NCBI RefSeq assembly: GCF_022662105.1
Contig: NZ_JAKMCP010000002.1
Coordinates: 248,001-312,000, forward strand
Length of the DNA stretch: 64,000 nt
Direction of reading: 5' to 3'
Origin: Aestuariivivens sediminis
GTDB taxonomy: Bacteria; Bacteroidota; Bacteroidia; Flavobacteriales; Flavobacteriaceae
A model generated the notes under the pieces. That model saw only the letters and a program-made list of their open reading frames with translations. It had not been told where the DNA came from and ran no database searches. The position numbers and the translations under genes were made by a program. Positions 3,431 to 13,877 of this stretch are shown one piece after another. Every line of letters starts with the position of its first letter. Within the stretch, counting starts at the first letter, position 1.

Positions 3431-4759
3431 TTATTTGTCGCCGTAAACTTCTTTAACAAAGTTTTCGTAACTCAATTCTTTCACTTTCAAATTGGCCTTT
3501 TCTTTGTAAACCCCTAGCAATTTTTGACTAATTAATTGCTCTGAAATGCGACGCGCTTCCTCCTGGTTAGATAACACACGAGCAGCAATATCGTCTAATT
3601 CTTTATCTGATGGATTCATTTGTCCAAATTGGGCCATCTGTCCTTTGATCATTTCCCTTGCATGATTTTTAATATCCTCCATGGTGACTTGGATATTGTT
3701 TTCTTCAATGAGTTTACCCTCTATTAATTGGTAACGCAGGCTTTTTTCGGACTTTTCATATTCTTCCTTGGCCTGATCCAGATCCATTTCCTTCTCACCA
3801 GCGGTCTGTAGCCATTTGGTTAAAAATTCGGATGGCAAATCGAACTTCGTGTTTTCTACCAAATATTCGGTAACATCGTTTAACAGCTTTTGGTCTGCTT
3901 GCTGGATAAATTGCTTTTCGGCATCTTCCTTGATCTTGGCTTTTAACTCGGTAACTGTTTTAACAACGTCCTTTCCAAATAATTTATCAAATAACTCCTG
4001 ATCTAAATCAGCCAGTTCCCGCTTGTTAATTTCGGTAATGGTAAAAGTTACTTCAATATCCAATCCGTGGACCTCATCATGCCCCAACTTTAGAGCATGC
4101 ATCAATTCATGATCGTCATCGTATAACCCTTTAGTTTTTAGGGTAAAAACATCTCCTACTTTGGCCCCTACAAATTTCTTTTCCGTCTCTTTTCCCTTGA
4201 ATTTATCTAATGTTAAAGTTACCGAATTATCAATTTCTTTGTCTTCATTTTTATAGGTTCCTGTAATCTCACTGTCCTTTTCAATGGTATCCTGAGGCAC
4301 TAATTTCCCATATTGCTTTTGAATACGTTCTATCTGCTCTTGAATCATTTTATCATCAGCAATGATATTATATTGAGTAATCGCCTTTTTACTTTTAAGG
4401 TTTACTTCAAACTCCGGAGCCAATCCCAACTCGAATTCAAATGTAAAGCCATCGGCATCCCAATCGATATTATCCTGTGGCTTAGGTAATGGTTGTCCTA
4501 ATACATCCAACTTTTCTTCGGTAAGATATTTGTTCAATGCATCTTGAAGTAACTTATTTACTTCGTCAACCAATACCGCTTTACCATATTGTTTTTTTAC
4601 CATTCCCATCGGCACATGTCCTTTTCTAAACCCCGGAATGTTTGCAGTTCTGCGATAATCGGATAAGATTTTTTCTACTTTATCGCTATAATCTTCTTTA
4701 GCGATGTCTACTTTAACCACCGCATTTAATGCATCAACGTTTTCTCTTGTAATATTCAT
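3431..4759 (-). CDS. tig: Trigger factor, ribosome-associated chaperone
   Basis: Trigger factor binds the ribosome exit tunnel and shields nascent chains. The 442-residue protein carries the ribosome-docking signature GFRKGHVPM near residue 45, a middle domain diverged from the FKBP-type prolyl isomerase fold, and an alpha-helical C-terminal chaperone domain. Start ATG at 4759 gives the expected MNITRENVDALNAVV beginning. A good Bacteroidota promoter lies upstream (4795-4826) and a terminator downstream. Confidence 0.95.
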   Translation of the reverse strand: MNITRENVDALNAVVKVDIAKEDYSDKVEKILSDYRRTANIPGFRKGHVPMGMVKKQYGKAVLVDEVNKLLQDALNKYLTEEKLDVLGQPLPKPQDNIDWDADGFTFEFELGLAPEFEVNLKSKKAITQYNIIADDKMIQEQIERIQKQYGKLVPQDTIEKDSEITGTYKNEDKEIDNSVTLTLDKFKGKETEKKFVGAKVGDVFTLKTKGLYDDDHELMHALKLGHDEVHGLDIEVTFTITEINKRELADLDQELFDKLFGKDVVKTVTELKAKIKEDAEKQFIQQADQKLLNDVTEYLVENTKFDLPSEFLTKWLQTAGEKEMDLDQAKEEYEKSEKSLRYQLIEGKLIEENNIQVTMEDIKNHAREMIKGQMAQFGQMNPSDKELDDIAARVLSNQEEARRISEQLISQKLLGVYKEKANLKVKELSYENFVKEVYGDK

Positions 4760-4794
4760 GTTTTAAACTCTAATTATAACTAAAAATCGGGACG

Positions 4795-4826
4795 CAAAAG
4801 TATAACATTTTTTGCAGCCCGACAAA
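4795..4826 (-). promoter_or_regulatory. Bacteroidota-type promoter of tig
   Basis: Read on the minus strand, TTTG (4823-4826) is separated by 20 bases from TACTTTTG (4795-4802), matching the Bacteroidota vegetative consensus TTTG-N19-TAnnTTTG. The tig start codon lies about 36 bases downstream of the -7 element. Confidence 0.65.
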
Positions 4827-4982
4827 GTTTTAATTACTTGATTTAGAAGCTATTTTTTCTTCTGTAAAAACTGAATTTTATATTCCAGAAATAACAGGCT
4901 TTAGTTGCACTTCATGATCCATCTTGATAGTCCATGCCATTTTATGATTTCTTACTTTACGAAAATTATATTCGGAAAAAAT

Positions 4983-5333
4983 TCATGCCCTTTTGTCTTC
5001 TTTCAAAAGCGAATGCAATATGGATTGAAGTATGGACAACAGGACACTAAAGAGAATGGCCCACCAAATGTTATTCACTGAAAATCCAGTAATTAAATTA
5101 TCCGCCAGGAGAATAATAAGTGCATTAATAATGAGTAAGAACAACCCAAGGGTAATAATGGTTATGGGTAGTGTAAAAATGATTAAGATAGGCTTTACCA
5201 ACAGGTTTAAAATGGATAGTACAGCAGCTACTATTATGGCCGTTACAAAACTATCGACATAAACACCGGATAATATATTTGCCAGAATAATTACCGCTAA
5301 GGCATTTAACAAAAGTTTGATTATAAGTTTCAT
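4983..5333 (-). CDS. Phage holin family protein (four-TM superfamily IV-like)
   Basis: This 116-residue, strongly hydrophobic protein has about four membrane segments (LLLNALAVIILANILSG, FVTAIIVAAVLSILNLL, PITIITLGLFLLIINAL and WWAILFSVLLSILQSIL). It matches the chromosomal 'phage holin family' membrane proteins common in Bacteroidota, which share NLLVKPIL and LPITIITLGLF. The family name does not imply a phage; no phage genes are nearby. Function is unknown. Confidence 0.75.
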   Translation of the reverse strand: MKLIIKLLLNALAVIILANILSGVYVDSFVTAIIVAAVLSILNLLVKPILIIFTLPITIITLGLFLLIINALIILLADNLITGFSVNNIWWAILFSVLLSILQSILHSLLKEDKRA

Positions 5334-5364
5334 AGGCTTGAAGTTTCATTAAAAGTACAAAAAA

Positions 5365-5475
5365 CTATGCCACAAATCCCTTAACCCCTTCAAAAAAGTC
5401 CTTCGGATTTTCGGCATGCAACCAGTGGCCTGCATTGGCAATGGTAACAATTTTAGCTTTTGGAAAATGATTTGA
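5365..5475 (-). pseudogene. Detached 3' end of an alpha/beta hydrolase gene
   Basis: On the minus strand this segment encodes about 37 residues (NHFPKAKIVTIANAGHWLHA, then ENPKDFFEGVKGFVA and a TAG stop). It copies the end of the intact hydrolase at 6355-7125. From 5400 to about 5475 the DNA matches 6387-6462 with about three mismatches; the last dozen codons diverge. It has no start and directly abuts the stop codon of the methyltransferase at 5477. It is a remnant left by insertion or partial duplication. Confidence 0.85.
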
Positions 5476-5476
5476 A

Positions 5477-6337
5477 TTAAATCCTTTTAAAAATCACTAT
5501 ATCTTGATATTCTCTTCCAGTGTTATTAAGTGTTTTACTTTTCCAAAAGCCATCTACAATTCTTATATATTCCATACCAGCATTTTGAAGCATTGATTTT
5601 AATACATTTTTATGTATGGCTATATTGCCAGATTTAACGTTTTCATTCATCAACCTATAGCCTTCTCTCTTATAAGGAAAATTAAAATGTTCTTTTTCAG
5701 ATATATATTTTTCATCATGTGAATCATACAGAAAAAATGTTGAAAAACACAACCCATTGGGTTTCACCACTCTTGCTATTTGATAAAAATAGTGCTGTAT
5801 TTCATCCAATTGCATATGCGTAAACAAAGAAATTGAGAAAACCTTATCAAAACTATTATTGCCATAAGGAAATTTAAATTCTGTTGCCTTCATTTTAGAC
5901 GTATTATACAAATCATTAAAAACTGGAACATATTTAAACTTAAAGTTAGAAAAATCTTCACCTATACCTTTATTACACCATTCAACGCCCTTTTTCACTA
6001 CATCAAATCCATCATAAGTGCCTTCTTTGTTTAAATATTTTGTAAGTGCAATTGCTGTCCTTCCTACTCCACTACCTATATCCAAAACCTTATCGCTTGG
6101 TAATAAATCAATTTCTTCTTTGAGTAAATTCAACTGGAATTGCCCCTGCTTTAAATACTCTTTTGAACCTATTGAAGAGCCTGTATAAATCATACCCCTT
6201 GGCGGCACATATTTATGCCTTCTGCCTAACACCTGATCTAATAAATCAATTGGAAAATAATATAACCTTCTAAACAAAAACCTTTGATTGGATGACAAAC
6301 TGTACCAAATCTTTCTAATACTATTTGTTTTCTTCAT
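5477..6337 (-). CDS. Class I SAM-dependent methyltransferase
   Basis: The 286-residue protein has motif I VLDIGSGVGRTAIAL near residue 94, followed by GFDVVKKGVEWC (motif II region) and FDKVFSISLFTHM, the arrangement of class I methyltransferases. No signal peptide is visible. The substrate cannot be read from the sequence. It looks more AT-rich than its neighbours and sits exactly between the intact hydrolase gene and a second copy of that gene's 3' end, which suggests it arrived as a cassette. It starts 17 bp after the hydrolase stop, so it may be translated from the hydrolase transcript. Confidence 0.8.
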   Translation of the reverse strand: MKKTNSIRKIWYSLSSNQRFLFRRLYYFPIDLLDQVLGRRHKYVPPRGMIYTGSSIGSKEYLKQGQFQLNLLKEEIDLLPSDKVLDIGSGVGRTAIALTKYLNKEGTYDGFDVVKKGVEWCNKGIGEDFSNFKFKYVPVFNDLYNTSKMKATEFKFPYGNNSFDKVFSISLFTHMQLDEIQHYFYQIARVVKPNGLCFSTFFLYDSHDEKYISEKEHFNFPYKREGYRLMNENVKSGNIAIHKNVLKSMLQNAGMEYIRIVDGFWKSKTLNNTGREYQDIVIFKRI

Positions 6338-6354
6338 ATAATCATATAAAAATA

Positions 6355-7125
6355 TTAAGCAAACTTAATAACCGCATCAAAAAAGGCCTTCGGATTTTCG
6401 GCATGCAACCAATGGCCTGCATTGGCAATGGTCACAATTTTAGCTTTTGGAAAATGATTGGAAATTATGGTTTCATCCTCTATACCAATATATTCCGAAC
6501 GATCTCCTCGTAAAAACAAAGTATCTTTTTCGAAAGTAGCGAAGGTCGGTAAAGGCTCTCCTATCTCTGCAACTTCTTGCTTTAAAACACTCAGATTGAG
6601 GCGCAAGGCTAAACGATCTTTTTCCTTCCAATAGAGGTTTTTTAATAAAAATTGTCTAATGCTCTTTTCAGGAATGTAGTGACTTAAAACGTCTTCGGCT
6701 TCCCCTCTGTTTTTTATTTCGTCGAAATTTAAGGCCGACAATCCTTCCAAAATGACCTCGTGATGTACTGGATAAAATCGAGGAGAAATATCAGCAACCA
6801 GTAACTTTGAAACCAAATTTGGGTAAAGTGACGCAAATAACATGGCGGTTTTACCCCCCATAGAATGCCCTAAGAGTATAATTTCTTTTAGATGATATGC
6901 CTCACAGTATTTTTTTAAGTCTTCCGCAAGAAATTCGTAACTAAAATCATTACTCCAAAAACTTCTACCATGATTTCTTTGGTCGACCAAATGCACTTGA
7001 AATCCAATGGAACTAAACTCTTTTGCCAAGGTCTTCCAGTTATCCCCCATCCCTAAAAACCCATGTAAAATAACAAATGGTATTCCTTCTCCTATGATGT
7101 TCGAATGTAATATCTTATTTGTCAC
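6355..7125 (-). CDS. Alpha/beta fold hydrolase (YbfF-like esterase)
   Basis: The 256-residue protein has the alpha/beta-hydrolase layout: oxyanion-side HGFLGMGDNW, DQRNHGRS, nucleophile elbow GHSMGG (Ser about 97), a late aspartate, and the catalytic histidine in NAGHWLHAENP. It is probably a cytoplasmic esterase; the substrate is unknown. The start is GTG at 7125, preceded in frame by a stop eight codons upstream. Its last codons (AFFDAVIKFA) differ from the detached copy at 5365-5475 (DFFEGVKGFVA), so the present C-terminus may have come with the inserted segment. Confidence 0.85.
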   Translation of the reverse strand: MTNKILHSNIIGEGIPFVILHGFLGMGDNWKTLAKEFSSIGFQVHLVDQRNHGRSFWSNDFSYEFLAEDLKKYCEAYHLKEIILLGHSMGGKTAMLFASLYPNLVSKLLVADISPRFYPVHHEVILEGLSALNFDEIKNRGEAEDVLSHYIPEKSIRQFLLKNLYWKEKDRLALRLNLSVLKQEVAEIGEPLPTFATFEKDTLFLRGDRSEYIGIEDETIISNHFPKAKIVTIANAGHWLHAENPKAFFDAVIKFA

Positions 7126-7197
7126 TAATCTATCATTTAATTGTTCCTATCATTACCAATAGGGACTCCGTGATTTCGCCTGTAAATATTCAACCCC

Positions 7198-7911
7198 CTA
7201 TTTTAACCTATTCAGATACATTTGTATTACATTCTCTACACCCAAATACAAACTTTCGGCTATCAAGGCATGGCCAATAGAAACTTCCAATAACCCGGGA
7301 ATTTCATTCTTGAAAAAGGCAATATTATCCAAGGATAAATCATGACCAGCATTAACGCCCAAACCCAACTTGTTTGCCAATTCGGCACAAACAACATAAG
7401 GCTTCACAGCCTTTTTATTACCTAAACTATATTGATATGCAAAGGCTTCGGTGTACAACTCGATTCGATCTGTACCAGTCCGTTTTGCTCCTTCAATTTG
7501 TTTTAAATCCGGATCAACAAATATCGAAGTTCTTATCCCTTTATTTTGAAATTCCTTGATTACATCAATTAAAAACAATTTGTTCTTAACCGTATCCCAA
7601 CCGGCATTACTGGTTATCGCGTCAACGGCATCCGGTACCAAGGTTACCTGAGTTGGTTTTACCTCCATAACCAGATTTATAAAAGATTCTACGGGATTTC
7701 CTTCAATATTAAATTCTGTAAACACCTCAGGTTTTAAATCACGAGCATCTTGATATCGTATATGTCGTTCGTCCGGTCTCGGATGGATGGTTATGCCTTC
7801 AGCACCGAACCGCTGAACATCTTTGGCAAATTGAAGCACATTAGGGACATTACCTCCTCTAGAATTGCGCAAGGTCGCTACCTTGTTGATATTTACACTT
7901 AACTTAGTCAT
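7198..7911 (-). CDS. pdxJ: Pyridoxine 5'-phosphate synthase
   Basis: PdxJ condenses 1-deoxyxylulose 5-phosphate with 3-amino-2-oxopropyl phosphate to form pyridoxine 5'-phosphate. The 237-residue TIM barrel shows [48 protein letters not shown] and the phosphate loop region [12 protein letters not shown], followed by [13 protein letters not shown]. Length and motifs are typical. A -7 element lies at 7929-7936. The CBS-domain gene is divergently transcribed 80 bp away. Confidence 0.97.
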
Positions 7912-7928
7912 GTAATCACATTAAAACG

Positions 7929-7936
7929 CAAAAATA
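7929..7936 (-). promoter_or_regulatory. Candidate -7 element of pdxJ
   Basis: TATTTTTG on the minus strand exactly fits TAnnTTTG and lies 18 bases before the pdxJ start codon. No clear TTTG is seen at the -33 position, so only the -7 half is supported. Confidence 0.4.
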
Positions 7937-7991
7937 CAAAGTTGAAAAGGGTTAAATACTATTTTTTTAATTAATTTGCGTGTACATAACC

Positions 7992-8660
7992 ATGGAAGAT
8001 ATGAAACTTTCAGAATTAATTATAAACGATATAAATCCCGTAAGGAGTTCCGATAAAATCAGTGATCTACAGCAACTTTTTAATCAATTAATCTATTCCC
8101 ATATCCCTGTAGTTGATAGCGATAACAATTACATCGGGTGTTTATTCGAAACGGATGTTCATTGTTTTGAGGGCAGCAAATCTATTATGGATTACAGTTA
8201 TGCTTTGGAAGATTTTTATGTAAAAAGCACGACCTTATGGTTAGATGTCCTGGAAGCGTTTGCCAGAAATTCGAGTAATATCATGCCCGTGCTGGATGAG
8301 AACAATAATTATCTGGGCTATTATGAATTAAATGACGTCATAAGCTTATTTGGAGAATCGCCCTTTTTCATCGACCCAGGGGGAATTGTAGTCATAGAAA
8401 AAGGGGTAAACGATTATTCGTTTAGTGAGATAAGTCAGATTGTCGAATCTAATGGCGGGAAATTATTAGGCGCTTTTATTTCTAAAACTAAAAATGATGT
8501 CGTTCAGGTAACCCTAAAAATTGGCAAAACCTCCCTGAGTGATATTTTACAAACCTTTAGAAGGTATAGTTACCATATTGTTTCCGGACATGAAGATGAC
8601 AGTTATAACCAAACTCTAAAGGATCGTTCAGACTACTTAAACAAATATTTAAACATGTAA
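7992..8660 (+). CDS. CBS domain-containing protein
   Basis: About 222 residues, with two N-terminal CBS motifs (YSHIPVVDSDNNYIGCL and SSNIMPVLDENNNYLGYYE) and a C-terminal ACT-like part. CBS pairs usually bind adenosyl ligands; the target is unknown. The frame is open from a GTG at 7980, but ATG at 7992 or 8001 (MKLSELI) is more likely. It is followed 6 bp later by nadK, an order often seen in Flavobacteriaceae, so it may sense nucleotide state for the same operon. Confidence 0.8.
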   Translation: MEDMKLSELIINDINPVRSSDKISDLQQLFNQLIYSHIPVVDSDNNYIGCLFETDVHCFEGSKSIMDYSYALEDFYVKSTTLWLDVLEAFARNSSNIMPVLDENNNYLGYYELNDVISLFGESPFFIDPGGIVVIEKGVNDYSFSEISQIVESNGGKLLGAFISKTKNDVVQVTLKIGKTSLSDILQTFRRYSYHIVSGHEDDSYNQTLKDRSDYLNKYLNM

Positions 8661-8666
8661 TTCATT

Positions 8667-9551
8667 ATGAAGGTTGCTGTATTTGGGCGATTTTACAATA
8701 AAACGACAAGTGCTTCAGTATTGGCGCTCTTTAATTATTTGCTTAAAAATAACATTGAGGCCTATATTGAAACCGAGTTCTACAACTTAATAAAAAACAA
8801 TTCGACCATTATCAAAGACTTCGAATCGTTTAAAACCTTTGACGCTTTAAATGACTCATTTGATTTATTTGTGAGTGTTGGAGGCGATGGTACCATTTTA
8901 AGAGCGATAACCTTTGTAAAGAATATAGACATTCCCATTATCGGAATTAATACAGGTAGATTAGGGTTTTTGGCTACAATTCAAGATAATGAGATAGAGA
9001 CGGCCATGCAAGATATTATTGATGGGAAATATAGAATTTCTGAACGCAGCTTACTTTCGGTTGAAACCCTTCCAAAAAACGATACCATCGCTTCACTTAA
9101 TTTTGCTTTAAACGAAGTTGCGGTAAGTAGAAAAAACACCACTTCCATGATTACTGTTGAAACCTATTTAGATGGCGAATACCTTACCTCTTATTGGAGT
9201 GATGGTTTAATTGTGTCTACCCCAACAGGTTCCACCGGATATTCATTAAGCTGTGGGGGACCCGTTATTACCCCGGGTGCCAAAAATTTTGTCTTAACGC
9301 CTATTGCTCCTCATAACTTAGGTGCTCGTCCATTAATTATTCCAGATTCCACAGAAATCCAATTAAAAGTTGATGGACGTGAAGAAAATCACCTGGTCTC
9401 ATTGGACTCTCGTATAGCAACACTTGATAATGGCACATTAATAACCATTAAAAAAGCCGACTTTAAGATTAAAATGATCGACCTCTTAAATGAAAGCTTT
9501 TTTGTAACCCTTCGCAAAAAATTACTTTGGGGGGAGGATAAACGAAATTAA
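8667..9551 (+). CDS. nadK: NAD kinase
   Basis: NAD kinase makes NADP+ from NAD+ with ATP (or polyphosphate) in the cytoplasm. The 294-residue protein has the GGDGTILRA motif near residue 73, NTGRLGFLA, the NE-type region FALNEVAVSR and the second signature STPTGSTGYSLSCGGP. It is 6 bp downstream of the CBS gene and clearly co-transcribed. It is the single enzyme for NADP formation in most bacteria. Confidence 0.97.
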   Translation: MKVAVFGRFYNKTTSASVLALFNYLLKNNIEAYIETEFYNLIKNNSTIIKDFESFKTFDALNDSFDLFVSVGGDGTILRAITFVKNIDIPIIGINTGRLGFLATIQDNEIETAMQDIIDGKYRISERSLLSVETLPKNDTIASLNFALNEVAVSRKNTTSMITVETYLDGEYLTSYWSDGLIVSTPTGSTGYSLSCGGPVITPGAKNFVLTPIAPHNLGARPLIIPDSTEIQLKVDGREENHLVSLDSRIATLDNGTLITIKKADFKIKMIDLLNESFFVTLRKKLLWGEDKRN

Positions 9552-9849
9552 TCCTGAGGTATGGATTATCATTACAGCAAAACCTTCAAAACAATATTTT
9601 GAATTAAATTCAGTTTTAAACAATGAACTTATCTAAACTTTTTAAGACACAAAATTTGATGATTTTGTGCTCTGAAACAGTCATTTTTAAAGCAGATAGC
9701 AGGGCTTTATTAGGAAACAAGTTGAATTTAGAAGTAAGACAGGGCATTTTTTAGTCCATTGATAAAAGTTTTGATAAGTTCGAGACTTATGAAGCTCAAA
9801 TTATAATGGGCTCATCTTATTTATTATATTTGCACACTTTTGAACATTT
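9552..9849 (+). other. Intergenic stretch after nadK with hairpin
   Basis: The 298-bp gap holds a perfect 8-bp hairpin at 9648-9669 (CACAAAAT, six-base loop, ATTTTGTG), too AT-rich and without a T run to be a strong terminator. A 43-codon ATG frame spans 9623-9754 but has no recognisable features. TATATTTG at 9825-9832 fits TAnnTTTG and may be the -7 element for the next gene. Confidence 0.45.
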
Positions 9850-10539
9850 ATGAGGCATCTAATCATATTGGCATTAAGTATTTTTAGCATCAATTTAAGC
9901 CACTCCCAAATAAACGAAGTTGGTCTTTTTTTAGGCGGAAGTAATTTTATTGGAGATGTTGGGTCCACAAATTACATTGCCCCTAAAAAGCTTGCTTTTG
10001 GGGCCGTTTATAAATGGAACAGAAGTCCAAGACACTCTTGGAGAGCCTCCTTGATTTTCACGGAACTCGAAGGTATAGACACAAATTCAGATGACCCCAG
10101 ACGTATACAAAGGGGTTATGAATTTACAAATGATATTATCGAGCTTTCGGTGGGTATGGAATTTACCTTTTTTGATTTTGACCTTCATACCGGGAAAAAA
10201 TTAACCACTCCTTACTTATATGGTGGGATAAGTGTTGCGCATCATGATAACTTTTATTTCCTGAATGGTACTCAAACGCCGGAAAACACATCTAGTTGGG
10301 CCTACGGAATTCCTATGGCTCTGGGTGTTAAAACCACCTTTTTAGATAATTTTATTTTAAGTGTGGAAATTGGGGCCAGATATACATTCTCTGACGAATT
10401 GGATGGCAGCATTCCAGATGATCAATTTCGACAACAATACCGTTTTGGAAATATTAATAATTACGATTGGTATGTATTCTCTGGAATTACCCTCACCTAT
10501 ACCTTCGGATTAAATCCATGTTACTGTCCTTCAAATTAA
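9850..10539 (+). CDS. DUF6089 family outer membrane beta-barrel protein
   Basis: The 229-residue protein has a signal peptide (HLIILALSIFSINLSHSQ), then alternating aromatic strands typical of an eight-stranded barrel (GLFLGGSNFIGDVG, TPYLYGGISVAHHD, LSVEIGARYTFSD) and a C-terminal CYCPSN tail. It matches the DUF6089 family found between nadK and uppS in Flavobacteriaceae. The conserved position ahead of uppS and bamA suggests an envelope role, but no function is established. Confidence 0.75.
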   Translation: MRHLIILALSIFSINLSHSQINEVGLFLGGSNFIGDVGSTNYIAPKKLAFGAVYKWNRSPRHSWRASLIFTELEGIDTNSDDPRRIQRGYEFTNDIIELSVGMEFTFFDFDLHTGKKLTTPYLYGGISVAHHDNFYFLNGTQTPENTSSWAYGIPMALGVKTTFLDNFILSVEIGARYTFSDELDGSIPDDQFRQQYRFGNINNYDWYVFSGITLTYTFGLNPCYCPSN

Positions 10540-10540
10540 A

Positions 10541-11281
10541 ATGGATATAATAAAAGACATAAATAGGAAAGCACTTCCCAAACATGTGGCCATAATAATG
10601 GATGGCAACGGTAGATGGGCTAAACAAAAAGGGATGTTGCGCACCTTCGGCCATGAAAATGGCACCAAGGCCGTTAAACGAGTCGTTGAAGCGTCGGCTG
10701 AATTAGGTATCAAAAACTTAACACTCTATGCTTTTTCCACCGAAAACTGGAAAAGACCAAAACTAGAAGTCGAGACCCTGATGAGGCTTTTGGTATCTTC
10801 CTTAAAAAAAGAAATCAAAACGCTTAAAGATAACCGTATAAAGCTTTGTGCGATTGGCAGTTTAAAGACCCTGCCAGCAAAGGTTTACAGTGAACTTCTT
10901 GAAGTTATTAACGCAACAAAACAAAACAGCCATATGACCCTAACACTGGCGTTAAGCTACGGTTCAAGAGAAGAACTTATAAACAGTGTAAAAGAAATTA
11001 GCATTAAAGTTAAAAATAATATAATTTCGCCCGAAAATATTGATGAATCAATTATAAATGAGCATCTTTACACGCAAAATTTGCCAGACGTAGATTTACT
11101 CATTAGGACAAGTGGAGAAAAACGTATAAGTAATTTTCTATTATGGCAAATTGCCTATGCCGAATTGTATTTTACAAATACACTATGGCCAGATTTTACA
11201 AAGGAACATTTGTATGAATCTATTATTGAATATCAAAAAAGAGAACGACGATTTGGGAAAACAAGCGAGCAACTCAGTTAG
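10541..11281 (+). CDS. uppS: Isoprenyl transferase (undecaprenyl diphosphate synthase)
   Basis: This cis-prenyltransferase elongates farnesyl diphosphate with isopentenyl diphosphate to the C55 carrier for peptidoglycan and surface glycans. The 246-residue protein shows the signature HVAIIMDGNGRWAKQKG (catalytic Asp), FSTENWKRP, and near the end DLLIRTSGEKRISNFLLWQ and ELYFTNTLWPDF. It begins one base after the DUF6089 stop and overlaps the bamA frame, so the three genes are translationally tight. Confidence 0.97.
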   Translation: MDIIKDINRKALPKHVAIIMDGNGRWAKQKGMLRTFGHENGTKAVKRVVEASAELGIKNLTLYAFSTENWKRPKLEVETLMRLLVSSLKKEIKTLKDNRIKLCAIGSLKTLPAKVYSELLEVINATKQNSHMTLTLALSYGSREELINSVKEISIKVKNNIISPENIDESIINEHLYTQNLPDVDLLIRTSGEKRISNFLLWQIAYAELYFTNTLWPDFTKEHLYESIIEYQKRERRFGKTSEQLS

Positions 11282-13877
11282 GAGTTTATGTCTATATACT
11301 TTTATTAAAGCCTGTTTAACAGCACTAGTTATTGTAATTTATTTTAGTAATAACTGTTTTTATGCTCAAAATACAACGTACAGCGACGGTGAAAAATACA
11401 TTTTGGGAGATATAACGGTGTCTGGGAATACCACATTTAATGATCAAACCATTATATCCTATTCCGGTTTGAGAAAAGGAAAGGAAATAACCATCCCAGG
11501 AGAAGATATTGCCAATGCCATAAAAAAACTTTGGGGCTCTAATTTGTTTAGTGACATAGAAGTTTTCTTAACTAAAGTTGAAGGTGATACAGCCTTTTTA
11601 CAAATTAAACTATCCGACCTGCCTCAACTTAATGAATTAAAAGTAAATGGGGTGAAAAAGGGTAAAATAGAAGGTATCATTAAAGACAATAAGTTAAATA
11701 AAGGTGTTAAAGTTACGGAGAACCTTATTAAAACGACTGAAAATTTCCTTGAAACCAAATATAAAAAGGAAGGTTATTTAAATACTAAAGTCCATATTAA
11801 CACCATTGAGGTTGAAGACTCAATAAAAACGTCACGTGTTAATATGGTATTGAATGTCGATAAAGGAGAAAAGGTTAAAATTAAAGACATTGTTTTTCAG
11901 GGTAATGACGTTTTAAGTGACAAAAAACTTAGAAAAGCCATGAAGAACACAAAAAAAATTAATCGCTTACGCATATTAAAGCGGTCAAAGTTTGTGGATT
12001 CTGCCTACCAAGCCGATTTAGGACATCTTATAGATAAATATAAAGAAAACGGTTATCGAGATGCCCGTGTCATTTCAGACAGTTTAATCATTAACAATGA
12101 TAAAACCATTTCACTTCAAATTAATGTTAACGAAGGAGAACAATATACTTTTGGTGATATCAAATTTATAGGGAACACCGTTTATAGTGACGAATTTCTT
12201 AATAGAATTTTACGTATAAGAAAGGGGGATACCTATAATGGTGTGCTTTTGGAAAAAAGGATTGCAGATCCCTCAAAACCGGATGCCCTGGATATCACCA
12301 ATCAGTATCAAAATAATGGTTATTTATTTTCTACCATAAATCCGGTAGAAGTTAGTGCCGATGACAATGTCATTGATCTTGAAATAAGAATTATCGAAGG
12401 AAAGCCTGCCTATTTTAACAATGTTAGTGTATCCGGAAACGACAAAACTAATGATCATGTCATATACCGTGAAATGCGGACACGTCCAGGACAGTTATAT
12501 AGTAAAGCTGATGTAGTGCGTACAATTAGAGAATTAGGACAATTAGGATTTTTTGATGCTCAAGAACTCACACCAGATATCCAAAATCCCAATCCAAATG
12601 AAGGAACCGTAGATATTGAATATAAAGTAAAAGAAGCCGGGTCCAGTCAAATTGAATTACAAGGGGGTTATGGCGGTGGCGGCTTTATTGGTACACTTGG
12701 ACTCTCATTTAATAATTTTGCCATTAAGGATATCTTAAATAAAAAAGCTTACAAACCTATTCCTATGGGGGATGGACAAAAATTAGCTTTGCGTTTACAA
12801 GCTAGTCGCTTTTTCCAAACGTATAGCTTTTCATTTTCAGAGCCCTGGCTGGGAGGTAAACGCCCTGTTCAATTTTCCGCCTCCATATCACATACCAAAC
12901 AATTTTTATACGATTACATAACAAGAAGGGCCGATAAATCCAGACGATTTAATATTACAGGAATCACATTTGGATTAGCCAAACGCTTATCCGTACCAGA
13001 CGATTACTTTACCTTATCACAAGCTATCAGTTTCCAACATTATGATTTACAAAATTACAACACAGGTTTATTTACATTTGGAAATGGTAGCTCTAAGAAT
13101 TTATCCTATACGGTCGGACTTAGCAGAAACAACACACGTATAGATCCTATATTTCCCACTGGGGGATCTAATTTCGCAGCCACTGCCAAATTAACCATCC
13201 CCTATTCTTTATTTAACAATGTAGACTATACCGCCTTGAAAAGCGAACGTGATGACAATCAGGACATACTCGCTGATCCAAATAGTTCTACGGCCGACAG
13301 AACTACTGCTTCAAACAGAATTAGTGAAATAGATCAGGAGCGTTACAAATGGCTTGAATTTTACAAAGTAAGTTTTAAGGGGGATTGGTACACTCAAATT
13401 GTAAAAAACTTAGTTTTAAAACCAAGTGTGGAATTTGGATTTTTGGGAGCCTATAATAATGACAGAGGTATTATTCCTTTTGAGCGTTATTTCCTTGGTG
13501 GGGATGGTCTGGGCACTTATAGCCTGGATGGACGTGAGGCAATTGCTTTAAGAGGTTACCCAAATCAATCTTTATCCGACCAGGATGGTGGGACCATTTA
13601 TAACAAATTTTCACTTGAGCTTCGTTACCCGATAACCTTGGGGGCTTCGGCAAAAATTTACGGATTAACCTTTTTAGAAGGAGGGGCTTCTTATAATAGT
13701 TTTAGAGATTACAATCCTTTTAATATTAATCGCTCTGCAGGTTTCGGAGTTCGTATTTTTATGCCGGCATTTGGGTTATTAGGAATTGATTTTGGGCATG
13801 GATTCGATACTATTCCGGGAGACACCGGGACGAAACATGGTTGGGAAACCCATTTTATAATAGGACAGCAATTTTAA
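11214..13877 (+). CDS. bamA: Outer membrane protein assembly factor BamA
   Basis: BamA is the Omp85-family core of the machine that folds beta-barrels into the outer membrane. The frame carries a signal peptide (TALVIVIYFSNNCFYAQ), five POTRA repeats (for example DITVSGNTTFNDQTI, DIVFQGNDVLSDKKL, DIKFIGNTVYSDEFL and NVSVSGNDKTNDHVI) and a 16-strand barrel; loop 6 appears as EAIALRGYPNQS. The start is uncertain: ATG 11214 overlaps the end of uppS by 68 bp, the frame is open to 11151, and there is no ATG between 11214 and the signal peptide. A TTG near 11253 is another option. Confidence 0.93.
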   Translation: MNLLLNIKKENDDLGKQASNSVRSLCLYTFIKACLTALVIVIYFSNNCFYAQNTTYSDGEKYILGDITVSGNTTFNDQTIISYSGLRKGKEITIPGEDIANAIKKLWGSNLFSDIEVFLTKVEGDTAFLQIKLSDLPQLNELKVNGVKKGKIEGIIKDNKLNKGVKVTENLIKTTENFLETKYKKEGYLNTKVHINTIEVEDSIKTSRVNMVLNVDKGEKVKIKDIVFQGNDVLSDKKLRKAMKNTKKINRLRILKRSKFVDSAYQADLGHLIDKYKENGYRDARVISDSLIINNDKTISLQINVNEGEQYTFGDIKFIGNTVYSDEFLNRILRIRKGDTYNGVLLEKRIADPSKPDALDITNQYQNNGYLFSTINPVEVSADDNVIDLEIRIIEGKPAYFNNVSVSGNDKTNDHVIYREMRTRPGQLYSKADVVRTIRELGQLGFFDAQELTPDIQNPNPNEGTVDIEYKVKEAGSSQIELQGGYGGGGFIGTLGLSFNNFAIKDILNKKAYKPIPMGDGQKLALRLQASRFFQTYSFSFSEPWLGGKRPVQFSASISHTKQFLYDYITRRADKSRRFNITGITFGLAKRLSVPDDYFTLSQAISFQHYDLQNYNTGLFTFGNGSSKNLSYTVGLSRNNTRIDPIFPTGGSNFAATAKLTIPYSLFNNVDYTALKSERDDNQDILADPNSSTADRTTASNRISEIDQERYKWLEFYKVSFKGDWYTQIVKNLVLKPSVEFGFLGAYNNDRGIIPFERYFLGGDGLGTYSLDGREAIALRGYPNQSLSDQDGGTIYNKFSLELRYPITLGASAKIYGLTFLEGGASYNSFRDYNPFNINRSAGFGVRIFMPAFGLLGIDFGHGFDTIPGDTGTKHGWETHFIIGQQF

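Follow-up and report, generated by a model that had tools for sequence, protein, structure and literature searches.

At tRNA islands and SCCmec-like islands, the incoming 3′ end restores the target gene and the old end stays behind as a direct repeat. In homology-facilitated illegitimate recombination (HFIR), one end of the incoming DNA is joined by homologous and the other by illegitimate recombination; short matches of 3-10 bp are reported to be usual at the join, and insertion is described as generally coupled with deletion (PMC3240628). Transformation is reported also to generate duplications via unequal crossing-over (PMC3784515). The minimal mobile elements (MMEs) of Neisseria are described as regions between conserved genes which hold different whole-gene cassettes in different genomes, carry no mobility genes and are exchanged by recombination in their flanks (PMC3898611).

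The locus analyzed here lies in a 64-kb stretch of an Aestuariivivens genome, hereafter referred to as the window. A methyltransferase gene (MT) is found there between an intact alpha/beta hydrolase gene and an orphan duplicate of the 3′ end of this gene, which is followed by a holin-like gene. Like an MME, the hydrolase-holin slot is a variable region between two conserved genes with differing whole-gene cassettes and without mobility genes. Unlike the Neisseria elements, which vary among strains, it varies across species and genera of Bacteroidota, it shows only two cargo families and an empty state, and in one genus its left flank gene is partly duplicated. HFIR can add DNA at a gene end and could give a product such as the orphan locus; the result here, however, is a short duplication, whereas HFIR generally couples insertion with deletion. 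With gene-3′-end islands the locus shares a direct repeat formed by the 3′ end of the target (two of 13 slot genomes), but it has no integrase, is about 1 kb long and carries one gene, and 11 of the 13 slot genomes have no repeat. The locus is a real duplication scar in an MME-like slot and not a new kind of system. Paper listings on Aestuariivivens, HFIR, tycheposons, gene-end islands, illegitimate recombination in Bacteroidetes and MMEs contained no report on the slot.

Organization of the locus

The genes of the locus are on the minus strand of the window in the order pdxJ, alpha/beta hydrolase, MT, orphan hydrolase 3′ end, holin-like gene, trigger factor, clpP and clpX. The names of pdxJ (7911-7198), trigger factor, clpP, clpX and the other flank genes are presumptive, being assigned from their sequences. 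The intact hydrolase gene (6355..7125) starts with GTG and codes for a 256-residue protein which ends with FFDAVIKFA before a TAA stop. The protein matches Pfam Abhydrolase_1 (5.5e-29) and the NCBIfam esterase model PRK10673 (3.6e-45), the latter with 154 bits compared to a cut-off of 399. A 17-nt spacer (6338..6354) separates the hydrolase stop from the start of MT, and most of the MT-bearing relatives shown in the comparison have a similarly short spacer before MT, ending in ..ATATGAA or a similar sequence.

MT (5477..6337), the cargo gene, encodes a 286-residue class I SAM-dependent methyltransferase. The SAM-binding domain was recognized by Pfam (Methyltransf_25, 6.6e-11; Methyltransf_11, 2e-10), and an N-terminal stretch of about 55 residues is well conserved. 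In a search for the function of MT, NCBIfam matches were below cut-offs and PDB matches were weak. A role in defense was considered, for which PADLOC returned only a partial match to mad2 (8.3e-13, 46 bits), in which residues 69-211 of MT correspond to positions 280-406 of the 492-position profile.

The MT stop abuts the orphan (5365..5476), which consists of about 35 codons and has its own TAG stop. Its translation in the hydrolase frame is SNHFPKAKIVTIANAGHWLHAENPKDFFEGVKGFVA, followed by the stop. The orphan has no start codon of its own and nothing was found that points to a protein product. Between the orphan stop and the holin-like gene there is a leader (5334..5364) which begins TTTTTTGTACTTTTAATG.. 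and resembles the sequence after the hydrolase stop of many MT-less relatives. The holin-like gene (4983..5333), the conserved right flank of the slot, codes for a 116-residue membrane protein of the Phage_holin_4_2 family (Pfam PF04020, 1.6e-31).

An earlier note on this DNA had located a hydrolase end in the "111 bases before" the MT stop; this is plus-strand wording for the orphan, which lies immediately downstream of MT. Its description of an AT-richer MT which fills 5477-6337 between the two copies, with no integrase, was borne out by our analysis. In 500-base windows, the GC content is 0.28-0.34 over MT vs about 0.35-0.38 over hydrolase and pdxJ. MT is the sole long ORF between the two hydrolase-end copies, and no integrase or recombinase is encoded there.

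The direct repeat

The two hydrolase ends belong to a direct repeat (5350-5476 and 6337-6463) that is 83% identical over 127 nt at a spacing of 987. In a simple i.i.d. base model, the probability of at least 105 matches in 127 by chance is ~1e-38. The repeated part of the intact hydrolase gene (6369..6463, 95 nt) is 93.7% identical to 5382-5476. Within the repeat, mismatches are clustered, with 2 differences in 73 positions and then 12 in 31 (Fisher p 4.9e-6). The near-identical orphan stretch, 5400..5475, differs from 6387-6462 at exactly 3 of 76 positions (5425, 5446 and 5473), as the earlier note had approximately counted, and the copies diverge beyond it: 18 of 50 positions differ between 5350-5399 and 6337-6386, an interval which includes bases past the stops.

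When direct repeats of at least 50 nt with copies within 6 kb were collected from the window, the 127-nt repeat was the longer of two families. The second family (54 nt, 70%) is contained within two adjacent ORFs, which we take to be MacB-type permeases. A background scan was extended to 364 kb of the genome, i.e. the window and the adjoining 300 kb, about 9% of the total, and yielded 20 direct-repeat matches, 19 after merging. The window pair is the only one in which the 3′ end of a long ORF has a counterpart that lies outside such ORFs. Two near cases were seen, one pair covering the last 13 nt at the end of a 321-nt ORF and another touching the end of an antisense ORF inside a longer ORF; the remaining matches are mostly neighboring paralogues or repeats within ORFs. 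The search for other detached gene 3′ copies that the earlier note had proposed thus gave no second clear case in these 364 kb.

Contig C6 of the same genome has further repeated sequences. Outside long ORFs, a direct repeat of 177 bp with 87% identity, whose copies are 4.3 kb apart (L203 8988-9164 and 13280-13455), adjoins a 34-codon match to an integrase C-terminus (C6:360117-360218) and is possibly an old integrated element. A 7-kb cluster of 65-90% identical segments with duplicated small ORFs is located at L212 about 4719-11772 (C6 about 536700-543800).

Occupancy of the hydrolase-holin slot

In the 23 genomes compared, the slot holds an intact MT in eight, an MT remnant in one, and is empty in 14. 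A second survey covered 56 loci from a set that overlaps with these genomes. Hydrolase and holin-like genes flank filled and empty slots alike; eight of the 56 surveyed loci have no holin-like gene inside the fetched locus. The MT-less interval, from hydrolase stop to holin start, measures 24-154 nt in the 23-genome comparison. In several genomes MT is followed by a TTTTGTA..TTTA-like stretch, and many MT-less relatives have such a stretch directly after their hydrolase gene.

An alignment-based search of genome contigs provided 74 named MT loci. Eleven of them are in the hydrolase-holin slot, in Aestuariivivens, Winogradskyella, Mariniflexile, Algibacter, Flavivirga, Flaviramulus and Seonamhaeicola, and in the last six of these genera slot MT is present without an orphan. 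A flanking repeat was found in 2 of 13 slot genomes tested, that of the window (G000) and A. marinum (G001), and was absent from the other 11. When whole genomes were searched, irrespective of the slot, 12 of 397 drawn from the family, A. marinum not being one of them, gave a match to MT at E 1e-90 or better. Presence of MT in the slot varies within genera. In the genus of G273, taken as Flavivirga because MT of G328 is identical to that of F. amylovorans, slot MT is intact in 2 of 12 genomes, a remnant in 1 and missing from 9; in the genus of G265, it is present in 1 of 4.

Cargo other than MT was also observed. The slot of G008 contains a MORN_2/TonB_C gene, and two Winogradskyella slots contain MT plus a relative (about 49% identity) of that gene. 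The states found are empty, MT, MT remnant, MORN_2/TonB_C gene, and MT with a relative of that gene; no mobility gene was found in the slot.

Individual loci illustrate these states. The MORN_2/TonB_C gene is alone in the slot at L012 2303-3400, and its relative stands after MT at L131 and L136. A decayed slot MT is seen as a remnant in Flavivirga G333 (L090 2341-2472), and the slot MT of a Winogradskyella MAG has one in-frame stop (L157 2817-3671).

Comparison of Aestuariivivens genomes

Four Aestuariivivens genomes were compared: that of the window (G000), A. marinum (G001), A. insulae (G002) and G003, which belongs to another species than the window's strain and served as the MT-less reference within the genus. 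MT is in the slot in three of the four, the orphan is present in two and the site is empty in one. The order is hydrolase-MT-orphan-holin in A. marinum, as in the window, hydrolase-MT-holin without the orphan in A. insulae, and hydrolase-holin without MT in G003. The earlier note had predicted an MT-less strain with a hydrolase ending FFEGVKGFVA; an MT-less congener does exist, but its hydrolase ends FFEAVIRFVG TAG, so the agreement is only approximate. The same note had regarded relatives with this gene order and diverged copies as evidence against an insertion, and A. marinum is in part such a relative. The spacer after the G003 hydrolase is rather long (154 nt) and, by eye, includes a palindrome-like stretch.

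The MT-adjacent hydrolase of the window's genome, A. marinum and A. insulae is one codon shorter and ends with TAA. The extra codon and a TAG stop are found in both orphans and in MT-less G003. Outside the genus MT-bearing relatives keep the extra codon, and G171 has TAG too; the extra codon with TAG is therefore no general mark of MT-less genes. Across the stop, the end of the window's orphan, with TAG and the TTTTTTGTAC leader, is identical to G003 at 45 of 61 positions, and the A. marinum orphan at 40 of 61. The last 48 nt of the window's orphan are 77% identical to G003 vs 69% to its own intact copy, and the first 64 nt are 95% identical to its own hydrolase and 73% to G003. These values suggest that the orphan's end derives from an MT-less type of locus and everything to its left from an MT-bearing type, the two being joined just past the MT stop. 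Against the explanation preferred below we count the modest match of 45 in 61, the lower value for A. marinum, the closeness of the first 64 nt to the orphan's own hydrolase, and the presence of the extra codon, and in G171 of TAG, in MT-bearing relatives.

The two orphans differ in their relation to the intact genes beside them. Identity to its own hydrolase is 95% over 64 nt and then 73% over 45 nt for the window's orphan, and 74% over 58 nt and then 87% over 45 nt for that of A. marinum. Similarity becomes recognizable 1 nt past the MT stop in the window and 15 nt past it in A. marinum; when a gap of ~7 nt is allowed in the latter, both joins meet nearly the same hydrolase codon. Such near-coincidence favors one shared event, with MT and orphan lost from G003 and the orphan lost from A. 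insulae, or transfer within the genus. Since the boundary of near-identity is different in the two genomes, one event fits only with later conversion.

At 4-fold sites of nine genes, the four congeners are 22-55% identical. These sites are near saturation, so unconstrained sequence should be hard to recognize, and a mere 3 mismatches in 76 need recent homogenization or a recent event. Judged by this divergence, the last exchange of sequence between orphan and hydrolase, or else their separation, must be of fairly recent date. In a FastTree tree built from 12 flanking proteins, the window's genome groups with G003 (1.000) and A. marinum with A. insulae (0.803). The MT tree, in contrast, pairs the window's genome with A. 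insulae (100/80), and the conflict fits transfer.

We also considered the short copy as the end of an unrelated tandem paralogue. This was rejected, since the orphan can be aligned with the end of the hydrolase gene and its sequence continues into the holin leader, just as it does in relatives without MT.

Phylogeny and exchange of MT

An MT protein tree of 72 rows was built with a filter of 42% identity and 240 residues; among 80 candidate loci, 9 had too low an identity or too short a match and were excluded. All 14 rows from the slot, which represent 13 different proteins, fall into a single clade with support 100/97, and the slot trait changes once on the tree vs a mean of 13.1 changes when shuffled. 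This topology points to a single entry of MT into the slot, before the genera separated or with later slot-to-slot transfer. The single clade, together with the slots that lack an orphan, implies that the arrival of MT long predates, or is separate from, the event that formed the orphan. The view that the orphan marks the first arrival of MT was rejected for these two reasons, and the reading of the orphan as a scar of MT insertion given in the earlier note finds no support: slot MTs stand without an orphan in several genera, and those tested are one clade. In other respects the earlier interpretation is partly supported; the MT-less-like end of the orphan agrees with the idea of an old end left behind.

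MT is less conserved than the hydrolase between the genera compared. Between Flavivirga genomes G273 and G328, MT proteins are 91% and hydrolases 84% identical. For DNA, identity is 87.3% for MT (64% at 4-fold sites), 80.2% (42%) for hydrolase, 78.7% (39%) for holin, 82.7% (51%) for pdxJ and 84.3% (40%) for the CBS gene. Trigger factor, at 88.2% and 62% at 4-fold sites, is as similar as MT, which counts against an exchange of MT. Over the last 57 aligned nucleotides of the hydrolase gene, G328 is 87.7% (50/57) identical to G273, and for its MT-less sisters G326 and G331 the values are 80.7% (46/57) and 82.5% (47/57); in every earlier part of the gene, the two sisters lead. This pattern, a difference of 3-4 sites, suggests that MT and perhaps the last ~57 hydrolase bases were exchanged between Flavivirga species. 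The hydrolase 3′ end may travel with MT, in Flavivirga without leaving an orphan. The proposal in the earlier note that the incoming segment brought its own hydrolase 3′ end gains something from these signs and from the MT-side end, one codon shorter and with TAA.

A related MT at a tRNA-Pro gene

In MAG contig CALGLR010000115.1 (G164; L053/L149), a related MT is located between an intact tRNA-Pro gene and a 51-bp perfect copy of the tRNA 3′ end, accompanied by a terminator-like hairpin. The repeats are about 1.1 kb apart (L053 1269-1319 and 2390-2465). In congener G363, similarity to G164 starts exactly at the tRNA-Pro 3′ end and the left flanks differ; nothing like the MT side of G164 was found in the 1.3 kb beyond the tRNA-Pro 3′ end. 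Elsewhere, a search for gene-end repeats of at least 50 nt around MT found only G164 among 24 loci, with shorter repeats in L105 and L110, and only A. marinum and the G164 contig among 74 loci, with 28-30 nt in L131 and L153; many of the loci searched have short flanks or are cut at contig ends.

Origin of the orphan

On balance, the orphan was probably left behind when two alleles of an MME-like slot, one with and one without MT, recombined unequally, and was later homogenized with the intact gene. The hydrolase-holin interval would then be a cargo slot with two conserved flanks, whose alleles, being empty or containing MT, the other gene or both, would be swapped through homologous recombination in the flanks and sometimes lost. 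MT would have entered it a single time, either in a common ancestor of several genera of Flavobacteriaceae or with subsequent spread from slot to slot, and may move together with the hydrolase 3′ end as its left homology arm. In an ancestor of Aestuariivivens, alleles with and without MT would have recombined unequally, such that the left side comes from the MT-bearing allele as far as the MT stop and the right side, added via an illegitimate or short-homology crossover, takes up the MT-less hydrolase ~35 codons short of its end. The product would consist of an intact hydrolase gene, MT and the native hydrolase end with its TAG and holin leader as a non-coding orphan, and the two hydrolase ends, about 1 kb apart, would since have exchanged sequence. 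The anatomy of the locus, the empty and filled slots, the single clade of the slot MTs tested and the alternative cargo are direct results; the unequal crossover, the gene conversion and the order of events are what we infer. The window's genome encodes a ComEC-type Competence domain, and judging by this one domain the strain may be competent.

An intact gene followed by cargo and an orphan 3′ end, with near-identity and then divergence, is also the anatomy expected if MT were a tiny, (formerly) non-autonomous element with its attachment site at a gene 3′ end, integrated by a recombinase acting in trans, so that the 3′ end of the element restores the target and displaces the old end. The similar anatomy at tRNA-Pro in the G164 contig keeps such an integrase-type origin alive for some MT members, and integrases are encoded at other places in the window's genome (6 PF00589 matches). 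For the slot we consider this origin unlikely. The cassette has no integrase, the hydrolase-slot and tRNA-Pro loci have, by eye, no ends in common, slot MT is of single origin on the tree, and flanking repeats are confined to the window's genome and A. marinum among the slot genomes and, outside the slot, at 50 nt or more, to the G164 contig (1 of 24 loci; 1 of 63 in a wider set). More doubtful again is a local partial tandem duplication, in which no second allele takes part and an MT-bearing genome acquired, behind MT, a copy of the 3′ end of its own hydrolase gene. The great similarity of the copies over 76 nt within the genome agrees with it, and with interspecies 4-fold sites near saturation the duplication could be recent. 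A copied end, however, should bring along the TAA end of the intact gene and the MT-side spacer, whereas the orphan has one more codon, stops with TAG and enters the holin leader in the MT-less register, and its last third diverges sharply, as the clustered mismatches show.

We give slightly less credence still to independent, fairly recent one-sided recombinations (HFIR) in the window's species and A. marinum, each with a homologous crossover in the hydrolase gene and an illegitimate join past the MT stop. In the window the near-identity breaks off abruptly, as would be expected if a crossover had taken place there, the A. marinum pattern is different, and a 5-nt TAATT match, within the 3-10 bp range, spans the window's join and by eye overlaps the MT stop. 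This match is, however, indistinguishable from chance here, and two joins just past the MT stop at nearly the same hydrolase codon (with the ~7 nt gap) are unlikely to arise twice by chance. No more probable than this is a bolder possibility, that the MT family is a one-gene mobile cassette which uses the target-gene 3′ end as a portable attachment arm, loops out seamlessly via the direct repeat and reinserts, with a protein gene as its target in Aestuariivivens and tRNA-Pro in another lineage, without a recombinase of its own. If it were true, loop-out of MT would restore the native hydrolase C-terminus, as MT-less G003 would look.

With recombination between alleles as the preferred explanation, the locus presents one accessory gene that has held one slot long-term over several genera, coming and going without a mobility gene and perhaps carrying the end of its neighbor along. 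The orphan end can still be read as a scar, which most likely stems from recombination of one allele with another, and from the direct repeat a spontaneous and precise loss of MT is predicted. For marine Flavobacteriaceae, the locus illustrates clearly, if modestly, how genes can be exchanged where no mobility gene is present.
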